Shown here: positions 42,178 to 62,916 of the stretch, piece after piece | Position numbering within the stretch: the first letter of the stretch is position 1 | How the letters are laid out: every line of letters begins with the position of its first letter | NCBI GenBank assembly: GCA_014898415.1 | Contig: RCTD01000016.1 | Coordinates: 1,398,900 to 1,462,899, forward strand | DNA: 64,000 nt | From: Stromatinia cepivora | Taxonomy: Eukaryota; Ascomycota; Leotiomycetes; Helotiales; Sclerotiniaceae | Direction of reading: 5' to 3' | The notes under the pieces: generated by a model | Told to the model about the DNA's origin: nothing | Seen by the model: only the letters and a program-made list of their open reading frames with translations | Database searches by the model: none | Translations under genes and position numbers: made by a program

Positions 42178-42459
42178 TATTACGAATCGTGAATTATAGA
42201 AAGTTAACCATATGATACCTCTTATCTCCTATATCAATTTATAAGCTGATCATCCATATATATATATTACGAATTATATAATTTAATATAATAAAATAGT
42301 AACTTTAATAATGTATACATATAACCCTACAATCTATAAATGGGTATTTGTGTATATATATCTAATCGCTCCTTACAAGCCATAATTCTTCAATTGTAGA
42401 TTCTAAGGAACATAATTGACCCTGTTTATTCAGCTCTACTACGGCTCTTGTGCGTCACA
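42178..42459 (+). repeat. 3' LTR of gypsy element B
   Basis: 282 bp; keeps the end CTCTTGTGCGTCACA unmutated. Confidence 0.9.
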
Positions 42460-42530
42460 AGCGGGGTTCATTTATCAACAGATCCAAAAATCTATCAACA
42501 GACAGACCCAATGATAAATGAGGCTGCCTC
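42460..42530 (+). repeat. Right half of the ~100-bp dispersed repeat split by element B
   Basis: TTCATTTATCAACAGATCC, AAAAATCTATCAACAGAC and the GAGGCTGCCTCACAC tail match 7584-7650. Confidence 0.65.
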
Positions 42531-42643
42531 ACACAACTAATAAACCAATCAATCAACCGCTAAGCCGCCCACATTCGCCTCACAATACACATGATATCGC
42601 AAAAAACTCACCTCTCGAGTCCAAGATGCAAAAGTTTCTCATT

Positions 42644-42796
42644 TGACAATTGAGGGATTCGAACCCTATTGAGATTTATTAGTTAGTGTACTCAGGAATA
42701 ATTAGCTGTGATTGCTTACCTCGCTCTTTCGAACCAGTAAATTGCTTGAATCAGGTCAGCCTGAAACTGGCGCCATAACCACTCGGCCAAATTGCC
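42644..42796 (-). tRNA. tRNA-Leu (anticodon CAG) with anticodon intron and a GT-AG insert in the T stem
   Basis: On the minus strand acceptor GGCAATT pairs with AATTGTC (one G-T pair), with discriminator A. The D stem is GCC/GGC. The anticodon stem CCAGT/ACTGG closes loop TTCAGG plus T after removal of an intron of about 20 nt at 42738-42757, directly 3' of the anticodon-adjacent G. That intron contains CCTG, able to pair with the anticodon region, as usual. The long variable arm has TTC/GAG. The T stem is interrupted after GAG by 54 nt (42719-42666) and then resumes GG, loop TTCGAAT and CCCTC. Deleting exactly those 54 nt gives GAGGG/CCCTC. The insert starts GTAAGC, contains CACTAAC and ends CAATAG. 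The A box (TGGCCGAGTGG) and B box (GGGTTCGAATCCC) are intact. A TTTT terminator lies 11 nt downstream, and no TTTT occurs inside the gene. Function as a tRNA depends on removal of the insert. Confidence 0.85.
42666..42719 (-). other. Spliceosomal-type intron candidate within tRNA-Leu(CAG)
   Basis: 54 nt, GTAAGC at the 5' end, branch-like CTAAC with 17 nt to the 3' end, terminal AATAG. It sits at an AG|G proto-splice junction (GAG|GG). Size and signals match the nuclear mRNA introns of this window (47-95 nt). It has no strong self-fold and no match elsewhere in the window that I can see. Confidence 0.6.
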
Positions 42797-44094
42797 AACT
42801 ATTGTATGTCGTTCTCGCGCTTTTGAGGGCATATAATATATACAGTGCCATTTTGAGGCAAAGATTTGAAGAGAAAGATTAGACGTTGATTTTAAAAGAA
42901 AGGATGTTAAGTTTTTTTTCGGTCTTGATATTTTCGATATGTCTGTATAAGAATCTAATAGTCTTAAAATTTAATAAATATATATCTATTTCATATCTAG
43001 AGAATGAAAAATATATTTGATAATAGTTTAAAAGTATATATATAAATTTTATTTTCTTATTATTATTATATCGTCTGAATTATTAAATCATATATAAGAT
43101 ATTTTCATCTAGATATAAATAAAAATCTTGAGATATTAAATATAAAAAAAGAATCGAAAATATAAAATTAAAATAAGATTAATATTTTCTATTGTATTTT
43201 TTGTAAGAATCACAAATGATAAAGAATCAATTAGTTTTAAAATAATAATAAAACTTTTCATTGTTTTTTTTTTCTTTTAAGAAAATTCTTTTTTTAAGTT
43301 TAATAAAAAGCGATATCAGAATGATAATAAACCGTCGATTATATGTTATAATTTAGTAAATATAGAGATTTTATAAAGTTTTCCAATCAAATAACAATAT
43401 ACTTGTGTTTAATATTAAAATCACTTTCTTATAGAGTTTTCTAACTTTATAAATAATATTCTTTTAGCAATCGTAGTATTTTTAACTTAGTTATTGAAAT
43501 TGAATTGAATTTATTAATATAGCAATTAATCAATCAAGAAATATTAATTTATTTTTATTATATATATTATAAGAAATTATTATAATAAGATTTATAAAAA
43601 AAGTTTTTTTTAATTCCTATTCAGATTATCTTTATTTATAATATATTTGTAATAATAGTTTCATTCAAAATATAATAAAGAATCAATTTATCTATATTAG
43701 AGAATAATAAACTATTATATAATATATAATAAAGTTGAATCTTTTATAGTTCTTATAGAGGGGATTGAAACCTAAACGAATGAAAAGCTCTGCTCAGAGC
43801 AGGTATAAAAGATAACGTTCTGAGATATTAATATCGGGATCGTTATACTATTCATTGATTTATATTTTATTATAATATTTCTCATATAGTTATTTAAAAA
43901 TTATTTATATAAAAATAATAATTTTATTAAAATACTCTGAATATAAATCTTCTTCAAAAAATATTTCGAGAAATTTTTTGAATTTGCTTTGCAAATAGAA
44001 AATATCTATAATTCATTTATTTTATATTATAAACTTTTCAATTATAAACATTTTAATTTTCATTTTCTTCACTTATATATCTCAATCCAATTGC
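42797..44094. other. AT-rich sequence, no gene
   Basis: Strongly AT-rich from 42890 onward. A short palindrome GCTCTGCTCAGAGC lies near 43788. No family recognised. Confidence 0.5.
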
Positions 44095-46111: not shown

Positions 46112-46183
46112 GCTTCTGTGGTCCAATGGTTAGGATTCCACCCTTCCAAGGTGGAGGTTCGTGTTCGATTCACGGCAGTTGCA
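46112..46183 (+). tRNA. tRNA-Gly (anticodon UCC), acceptor stem imperfect
   Basis: The anticodon stem CCACC/GGTGG closes loop CTTCCAA (anticodon TCC). The T stem TCGTG/CACGG (one G-T) closes loop TTCGATT. The D arm GGTCCAATGGTTAGGATT is typical of fungal tRNA-Gly. The acceptor GCTTCTG versus CAGTTGC leaves U-U mismatches at pairs 3 and 4, and the discriminator is A. A TTTTCTTTTT terminator follows. It is probably still transcribed, but two acceptor mismatches are unusual and it may be a pseudo-tRNA. Confidence 0.8.
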
Positions 46184-60742: not shown

Positions 60743-62916
60743 ATGCCCTTGCCATGGCCCTTCTCCAAAAAGTATCCCGAGAAACCCCCCGAATTCGCAA
60801 ATGCAAAGGAATACGATTATATAATAATAGGAGGTATGTATCATCCATTTTCCATAGAATAAATTCTCCAAGTACAAATATCCCAATTTCCATTTCCCTA
60901 TTCACATACACTTCAACTGTAGACAGTATATCCGGCTGTATTCTCGCATTCTATTTCAATGCCCTCAATACCCACAATCATTCTCCTAAAATCCTTCTCA
61001 TCGAATGTGGCCCTATAAACAATATCTATATATTACGAATCCCTTTTTTATCATTTAATATCTTTGATGTATCTACGGATACTAAATCCTGGGTATACGA
61101 ACTAATGAATCATTGTAACGAACAATAATCCCTTGTTTTTCGCATTGATGTAATGGATGATGCGAATAGAGTTAATAGTGAAGTGTATATTCGTGGTATA
61201 AAGGGAGATTATGAAATGTGGAAGGAGATGGGGAATGAGAAGTGGGGGTGGGAGGATTGTAGAGCCTGTTTTTAGGAGGGTAGAGAGAGTGGTTGGGGAG
61301 GATGGGGAAAAGGCAATGGAGAGGGGGAGAGGGATATGTGGGGGGCGGGCTATGAAACGGTTTGGCTATTGGGATTGGGCTTGGAGAGCGCAGAGAATGT
61401 GAGTTTGGTACCCTTTGTATCGATATCGTGTTGGTTGAATGAAATATTTTGCTAATCACTGCATGTATAATGAAAGGTTTGCAGACGCAGCTGAAATAAT
61501 GGGGTTCTCCCGTATTTCAGATACAAACGTGGCGGATGCACCAATTGATGGATTAGCTATGTTATACAGCACAATCAGCGAAGATGGAAAGCGAAATTCC
61601 ACTTTCCATTCTTTTCTTCCTAGAGAAGTTGCTTTGGAGAGAGAAAAAAAATTGACTATCTGTACTAATACCACGGTTCATCGAATTGTGTTTTCAGATG
61701 AAAATGGAGTTCCCCGCGCTGATAAAGTTATCTTTGGAAGTTCGCATCCAAAATCTTCGAGGATCTTTGAGGCTAGAGTAAAGAAGGAAGTTATCATTTG
61801 CTCTGGTGCGCTAGGTTCTCCACAAGTTTTAATGTTAAGGTATGCGAATTTCGTATCTCGAGATTCGAATAAGGGAGTCTAACATTTGAGTTCAGTGGTA
61901 TTGGGTCCTCGTGAACATTTGGAAGAACACAATATCAAAGTCATACATGATTTACCTGGTGTTGGCTCTAATTTAGTAAGTTTTCCCCCCCTATAATAGA
62001 CGATTGAACTCTTACTAATCAGAGACCTTAGACCGATCATCCAAGTATACCTGTTGCATGGGAAGTACCAATCGAAGAATCCATCACTCGAGTCGTAGTA
62101 TCTCCCTTAAAAGCCGTTGTCGAACTCGGCAAGTATCTTCTCTTCGGAACCGGAATCATGAGTTTTCCATCCCAAACACTAAGCTTCTTCATCCGATCCA
62201 AATCCCTCAACGAAGATGCCACCGGACCACTCATCAAACAATTTCCATCCTCAGATACACCCGAATCCGCAAAAACCAAAATTGAAAATATTCATTTCAC
62301 AAACTCAGAAGACCTGATTCCAGACATCGAACTCATGCCCCTACCCACAAGCGCCATGGACGATATGGAAGAACGACAATCCAGCTTCTCCAAAATAGGA
62401 ATCTTCTGCATCCTCGCCACAATCTGCAATCCTCAATCCCGCGGTAGCGTTCGTCTGACATCCTCATCCCCCCATTCATTCCCGGCCGTCGATTTCGGAA
62501 TATTATCTCACCCAAACGACTTGATCATAGCGCGACGCGCCGTGCATCTCGCCCTCTCATTCGGCAAAACCATGCTTTCCTCGGGTTTCCCCCTCCTCCG
62601 TCCCATCACCTTCCTATCCGAAAACCAGAATCTCGATATCGAGAATGGAAATCAAGAACAGATGGATCGATTCATACGTCATAGGGTCCGAAATACTTTT
62701 CACTATGCATCGACATGTCGGATGGGTTCTGAGAGCGATGAAGAGGCGCCAGGGGTTGTAGATGGCGAGTTACGTGTTCATGGGGTGAGGGGTGTTAGGA
62801 TCGCAGATACGAGTGTTTTTCCTAGGATTGTGAGTCATCATCCTATGGCTCCTGCGGTGATGGTTGCGGAAAGATGTGCGGATTTCATCATGGATGATGC
62901 GGAGAATAAAGATTAA
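60743..62916 (+). pseudogene. GMC oxidoreductase gene (FAD-dependent), disrupted
   Basis: The start ATG at 60743 reads MPLPWPFSKKYPEKPPEFAN then EYDYIIIG. An intron (60834-60922, GTATGT..TAG) follows, then SGCILAFYFN and KILLIECGP. The nucleotide-binding GxGxxG is changed (GGGTSG-type to GDSISG). After NHCNEQ a TAA interrupts. The same frame continues SLVFRIDVMDDANRVNSEVY and IRGIKGDYEMWKEMG, matching the GxVxGGSSxxNxMxYxRGxxxDY region with its glycines lost. A frame change occurs near 61270 and another by 61439. FADAAEIMGFSRISD through GALGSPQVLML then follows. Introns at 61840-61895 and 61976-62031 flank GIG..EHLEEHNIKVIHDLPG, which contains a one-base insertion near 61906. The C-terminal domain (62032-62916) is intact, with HYASTCRMG and HPMAPAVMVAERCADFI. 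The family oxidises alcohols or sugars; this copy is dead. Confidence 0.8.

Follow-up and report, generated by a model that had tools for sequence, protein, structure and literature searches.

In the genome of the fungus Stromatinia cepivora (Sclerotiniaceae, Leotiomycetes; 55.7-Mb assembly, 48 contigs), a nuclear tRNA-Leu(CAG) gene carries, in addition to an ordinary intron in the anticodon loop, a 54-nt insert at the border of the variable arm and the T stem which, judged by its sequence, is very likely a spliceosomal intron. The gene lies at 42796-42644 on the minus strand of the window, as we call the whole 64,000-nt stretch that was analysed (contig RCTD01000016.1, positions 1,398,900 to 1,462,899), which is the terminal 64 kb of a contig of 1.46 Mb. 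It sits within an AT-rich block of about 25% GC (window 10001-52000; flanks, about 40% GC). The insert occupies 42666-42719, on the minus strand like all features of the gene given below. We consider it probable that it is a U2-type spliceosomal intron residing in a gene of RNA polymerase III (Pol III) and that it is removed by the spliceosome.

The Rfam tRNA family (RF00005) and inspection of the sequence identified the gene as a class II tRNA-Leu(CAG) with two introns. The whole Rfam model was matched with a score of 34.3 bits (E = 4.8e-05; gathering score, 29), and in the alignment the anticodon and T arms are separated by the extra bases. Exon 1 (42760-42796; 37 nt) extends from the 5′ strand of the acceptor stem through G37 and is followed by the canonical anticodon-loop intron (42740-42759; 20 nt, CTGACCTGATTCAAGCAATT). 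This intron contains a CCTGA that is complementary to TCAGG in the anticodon loop. Exon 2 (42720-42739; 20 nt) contains the end of the anticodon arm, the variable arm and GAG. The 54-nt insert, with 31% GC, comes next, and exon 3 (42644-42665; 22 nt) supplies GG, the T loop, the 3′ strands of the T and acceptor stems and A73. When both introns are removed, the resulting 79-nt product forms all of the expected pairs in the acceptor stem (7/7, one of them G-U), the D stem (3/3), the anticodon stem (5/5) and the T stem (5/5), and the features of a tRNA-Leu are all present: cloverleaf, class II arm, A73, G37, A and B boxes and terminator. The A box (TGGCCGAGTGG) is located at 42779-42789 and the B box (GGTTCGAATCC) at 42655-42665. 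A TATA-like element (TATATATTATAT; 42831-42842) lies at positions −46 to −35, and a TTTT terminator (42630-42633), followed by GC, starts 10 nt past the gene end. Among 67 distinct host tRNA genes, this one counted, a match to a simple TATA pattern within 60 nt upstream was found for 29, and a run of at least four T starting within 30 nt downstream for 52. No TTTT occurs within the tRNA-Leu(CAG) gene; because 45,878 of 83,892 54-mers of the AT-rich block are free of TTTT as well, its absence from the insert is weak evidence. A decayed tRNA pseudogene was rejected as an explanation, since stems, boxes and terminator show no decay, which leaves room for a recent loss of function. The locus was absent from the output of ARAGORN run with default settings, and the ARAGORN call for it, a tRNA-Cys(ACA) with a 73-nt intron, is a misreading of tRNA-Leu(CAG). 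As a separate observation, TTTTGC follows 27 of the 67 distinct tRNA genes within 40 nt, the window copy at 42633-42628 included, as a raw count.

The signals of the insert are those of a U2-type fungal intron. Its 5′ splice site, GTAAGC (42714-42719), follows exonic AG and fits the fungal GTRNG in combination with GT...AG ends; its branch site, ACTAAC (42682-42687), fits RCTRAY and has its branch A at 42683, 17 nt upstream of the final base of the intron and inside the 6-36 nt range from the acceptor; and its 3′ splice site is TAG (42666-42668). Further branch-like words are found at 36 and 13 nt. The junctions read GAG/GTAAGC...CAATAG/GG, that is, a site of the AG/G type. Because AG precedes both breakpoints, four removal registers (−2, −1, 0 and +1) yield an identical product, and only register 0 gives GT-AG ends. 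In the uncut sequence, the last bases of the insert together with GG form four of five pairs with the 3′ T strand, so that an almost normal T arm may form in the precursor, perhaps aiding end processing. ARAGORN called 57 distinct tRNAs in the loci that were fetched, the only ones covered by this tally; the T stem has five pairs at its normal place in 49 of them and four in 8, namely the window gene and seven tRNA-Gln genes. An earlier sequence-only reading of this DNA had given the positions of the gene and the insert, the intron next to the anticodon, the motifs GTAAGC, CTAAC and CAATAG, the boxes and the terminator, and had stated that removal of the insert restores GAGGG/CCCTC; all of this was confirmed, the spliced product having its five T-stem pairs. 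It had also described the T stem as split by the insert. Splitting is one of four equivalent descriptions, and since the uncut T stem, which keeps four of its five pairs, is weakened but not abolished, the wording was too strong.

The chance of meeting such signals was assessed on both strands of the AT-rich block. The full filter required a 54-mer to start with GTRNGY, to end with AG and to contain an RCTRAY whose A lies 6-36 nt from the end, the branch distance and the consensus being those given for fungi in PMC5832005. Only one of 83,880 54-mers passed, and that one was the insert. A looser filter, consisting of GT, RCTRAY and AG, was passed by 7 of the same 54-mers, and GT...AG ends alone were found in 132. 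When four adjacent registers were allowed, the rates became approximately 5 in 100,000 for the full filter (all from the insert), 3 in 10,000 for the looser one and 0.6% for the ends alone. Over lengths of 40-80 nt, 7 of 3,437,440 segments passed the full filter.

Set against introns of the host, the insert comes close to them but falls on or slightly outside the limits of their ranges. Three GMC oxidoreductase genes supplied the yardstick, in the form of six introns read from exon matches together with the DNA. The S. cepivora protein P0024 matched contig C31 in three exon pieces (100, 98 and 87%), and two introns of C31 were confirmed in that the joined exons match P0024 exactly; two further introns keep the frame open in the homology, and the remaining two are those of the GMC oxidoreductase gene in the window. 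The six introns are 56, 56, 70, 63, 74 and 57 nt long, begin with GTATGC, GTAAGT, GTATGC, GTACGG, GTTTGT and GTATGC, respectively, end with CAG or TAG and have a GC content of 38-40%. The distance from their branch-like sites to the end is 11-16 nt; one of these sites is TCTAAC, which falls outside RCTRAY, and one intron has a second site at 8 nt.

An uninterrupted paralogue is present in the same genome. The tRNA-Leu(TAG) gene on contig C24 (546911-547008) carries TTCGAAAGAGCGAGGGTTCGAATCCCTC, to which the window gene without its insert is identical over 28 nt, with an exact empty site and an identical variable arm. The sequence-only reading had named several intact tRNA-Leu(CAG) genes elsewhere among the signs that the window gene is a dead copy. 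A second one was therefore sought in the 55.7-Mb assembly with patterns, both exact and allowing up to three mismatches, and none was found, although they would miss a gene whose D arm differs strongly. Patterns for the 5′ half with at most three mismatches matched the window gene, four tRNA-Leu(CAA) places and one tRNA-Leu(TAG). The exact D-arm pattern for tRNA-Leu(NAG) matched the CAG and TAG genes only and can thus miss members of the family; tRNA-Leu(AAG) and tRNA-Leu(TAA) did not appear. The genome-wide search with the tRNA family listed at least 62 matches, with 63 of 3,161 candidates scored; because the window gene itself was missed, this is a lower bound and not a tRNA census. Exact patterns gave no match in the viral_contigs and genome_contigs sets, which contain no relatives of the host.

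Other origins of the insert were considered. A whole-genome DNA search, in which common words were skipped, revealed no near copy of it, and the longest other match in the fetched DNA was 13 nt. An introner-like element or copied intron was rejected, because many near-identical copies would be expected whereas the insert matches only itself; the absence of a near copy also speaks against the insert having been copied from a donor intron very recently. An ectopic intron of the bulge-helix-bulge (BHB) type, defined by a central helix of 4 bp with a 3-nt bulge on either side at the junctions, was rejected as well: the best central helix over nine offsets has 2 of 4 pairs, a weak discriminator, the ordinary anticodon intron reaching 3 of 4. 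Taken together, the chance rates, the likeness to host introns, the uninterrupted paralogue and the lack of a BHB motif lend good support to the intron identity that had been proposed from the sequence alone.

If the insert is spliced as we suppose, Pol III would make a single precursor that still carries the two introns; the 20-nt anticodon intron would be cut out by the tRNA endonuclease and ligase, and the 54-nt intron would be excised at AG/G by the spliceosome, which would restore the variable arm and the GAGGG-CCCTC T stem. We infer that tRNA-Leu(CAG) is probably transcribed, spliced by the spliceosome, charged and used in translation. We also lean, with some caution, towards the view that its maturation passes through two splicing systems, such that the supply of the one tRNA-Leu(CAG) that was found, together with a part of CUG decoding, would depend on the spliceosome.

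Several points weigh against spliceosomal removal of the insert. The full filter was composed from the fungal consensus after the insert had been seen, and it is stricter than real host introns, of which 3 of 6 pass; the looser rates are therefore the fairer ones. The insert lies just outside the six-intron sample, being 2 nt shorter than the shortest intron and having a branch distance 1 nt above the longest, and its 31% GC contrasts with the 38-40% of these introns, albeit in a very small sample. Its 3′ splice site AG lies inside the pairable T stem of the precursor and may be hidden there. The only U6 gene over the cut-off (47 of 5,334 candidates scored) is intron-free, so that these searches yielded no second Pol III intron in the genome. 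A pattern for T-arm introns (GTAWG...YAG, 41-71 nt, abutting a T-loop word) matched 17 places genome-wide, as against 19 for the reversed control, which puts it at background level; in the 17 loci, the window gene was the only tRNA recognised by Rfam, beside a single microRNA match below threshold. By this pattern, tRNA-Leu(CAG) with its T-arm intron is a single case in the genome. Finally, tRNA-Leu(UAG) might read CUG by wobble, as in yeast, and tRNA-Leu(CAG) thus need not be essential.

The main rival reading is that an intron was inserted and the gene is now silent, in which case the insert would never be removed and the tRNA would be lost, whether or not a precursor is made. We regard this as possible but rather unlikely. 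Intron insertion by itself would leave the splice signals intact, the genome offers a single case, located in a block of about 25% GC, and the existing tRNA-Leu(UAG) might serve CUG codons in its place. However, the stems, the boxes, the TATA element, the T-run and the pairing of the anticodon-loop intron are all intact despite the AT-rich DNA around them; the insertion does not seem to be a fresh one, as nothing nearly identical that could have donated the insert was visible; and the patterns found no intact gene that would replace tRNA-Leu(CAG).

The remaining alternatives are far less probable. It is quite improbable that the insert is an ectopic tRNA intron of the kind found in Cyanidioschyzon or archaea, on which the tRNA splicing endonuclease would act: the host presumably has this enzyme, given its anticodon introns, but the BHB motif is lacking, as far as 2 of 4 central pairs can discriminate, and GT, branch site and AG are all present even though the enzyme is not known to need any of them. 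We give equally little credence to chance, that is, to an arbitrary intron-like insertion or to an RNA polymerase II (Pol II) transcript whose intron overlaps the tRNA. The frame ahead of the insert is indeed open for 84 codons, stop to stop, and GT...AG ends alone would be expected in 0.6% of inserts over four registers, but the full signals were found in 1 and the looser set in 7 of the 83,880 54-mers, and removal restores the tRNA exactly. Least probable of all is that the mature RNA keeps the insert, which would form a giant variable arm. Such a molecule could rely on the uncut T arm, which pairs at four of five positions like those of the seven tRNA-Gln genes among the 57 distinct tRNAs; its variable arm, however, would have about 65 nt in place of 11, the tRNA-Leu(TAG) and tRNA-Leu(CAA) paralogues having ordinary ones, and the splice signals would be left unexplained.

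Removal by the spliceosome, the reading that we prefer, can be set beside known introns of structural RNAs. The U6 small nuclear RNA (snRNA) of Schizosaccharomyces pombe and other fungi is reported to contain a spliceosomal intron (Tani and Ohshima 1989; Canzler et al. 2016, both cited in PMC5832005). Like the insert, it is an mRNA-type intron in a small RNA made by Pol III, but U6 is not a tRNA and the U6 gene of the host is uninterrupted. Ordinary eukaryotic tRNA introns are like the 20-nt anticodon intron of the window gene, whereas the 54-nt insert differs from them in position and signals. In fungi, U3 small nucleolar RNA (snoRNA) genes carry spliceosomal introns with GT-AG ends and RCTRAY, a branch distance averaging 15 nt, a mean length of 92 nt and a strong preference for CAG over TAG, and the genomes of Sclerotinia sclerotiorum and Botrytis cinerea each have an interrupted and an uninterrupted U3 copy (PMC5832005). 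These introns share with the insert the GT-AG ends, RCTRAY and a structured small RNA as host, but that RNA is a different one, and they are longer and favour CAG. Structured non-mRNAs of Pezizomycotina thus contain spliceosomal introns in both U3 (PMC5832005) and rRNA (PMC8527467). In lichen-forming ascomycetes, the nuclear ribosomal DNA (rDNA) has ectopic spliceosomal introns (Bhattacharya et al. 2000, cited in PMC8527467), and yeast removed such introns from RNA polymerase I (Pol I) transcripts (PMC8527467); they resemble the insert, as we read it, in being spliceosomal and in interrupting a structural RNA not made by Pol II, but differ in that the RNA is rRNA and the polymerase Pol I. In Cyanidioschyzon merolae and in the Guillardia nucleomorph, ectopic tRNA introns are treated as BHB introns of the endonuclease type, although many of those in Guillardia have no defined BHB (PMC3978253). 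The unusual position within a tRNA is common to them and the insert, which, however, has GT-AG ends and a branch site and no BHB. Non-canonical tRNA introns are also described in archaea (PMC8450103).

A 2026 review presents tRNA splicing as independent of the spliceosome (PMC13149111), and a Pol III review (PMC10498592) uses the word 'intron' at three places, none of them about introns in Pol III RNAs. Among the best-matching open-licence literature, outside which most subscription journals lie, we found no report of a spliceosomal intron in a nuclear tRNA, which falls short of proof that none exists. If confirmed, the novelty of the present case would be that a spliceosomal intron, a type already known in the structural RNAs U6, U3 and rRNA, occurs in a nuclear tRNA. 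One RNA would then be cut by both splicing systems, and the mRNA splicing machinery would take part in making a tRNA. It would also follow that a short, tightly structured Pol III transcript can reach the spliceosome and that introns can be gained and retained in tRNA genes. Programs that find tRNA genes can overlook genes of this kind, as the tRNA-Cys call by ARAGORN illustrates.

Within the AT-rich block, the gene sits in a small local GC island (42400-42799; 37-47% GC), while the DNA within about 1 kb of it mostly has 9-27% GC, with one 100-base bin at 37%. Damage by repeat-induced point mutation (RIP) was rejected as an account of the block, since (CA+TG)/(AC+GT) is about 1.3 and TA/AT 0.83-0.87, which does not indicate RIP by the usual thresholds. 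Rfam found three tRNAs in the window, tRNA-Leu(CAG) included. The tRNA-Gly(TCC) gene (46112-46183, plus strand) also lies in the block and has an identical counterpart on contig C32 (L054), indicating that intact tRNA genes survive there. The 3′ flank of tRNA-Leu(CAG), 42400-42640, is GC-rich for the block (GC fraction 0.37-0.45), and no Rfam family matched it up to E = 1.

Other tRNA inserts of the same kind were looked for among the matches of the family search, but in the two longest other matches (L071 and L022) the inserts are located in the anticodon loop. L022 contains two neighbouring tRNA-like genes (968-1162 and 1501-1635) with very long anticodon-loop inserts, called by ARAGORN, apparently wrongly, as tRNA-Gln(CTG) and tRNA-Pyl(CTA); only the second exceeds the Rfam cut-off (57 bits). 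The tRNA-like gene of L071 (101-250, minus strand) has an anticodon-loop insert of about 80 nt and several mismatched pairs. Seven of the 17 places matched by the T-arm intron pattern (L103, L105, L108, L109, L110, L113 and L116) share a stretch that starts with TCGAACCCTA and ends with TTAAATCATAC; this is a dispersed repeat and no tRNA by Rfam. Towards the end of the window (61700-62900, plus strand), a GMC oxidoreductase gene has two introns at the same places as its paralogues, but the reading frame changes within the exon that separates them; the gene is either a broken copy or the product of an assembly error.
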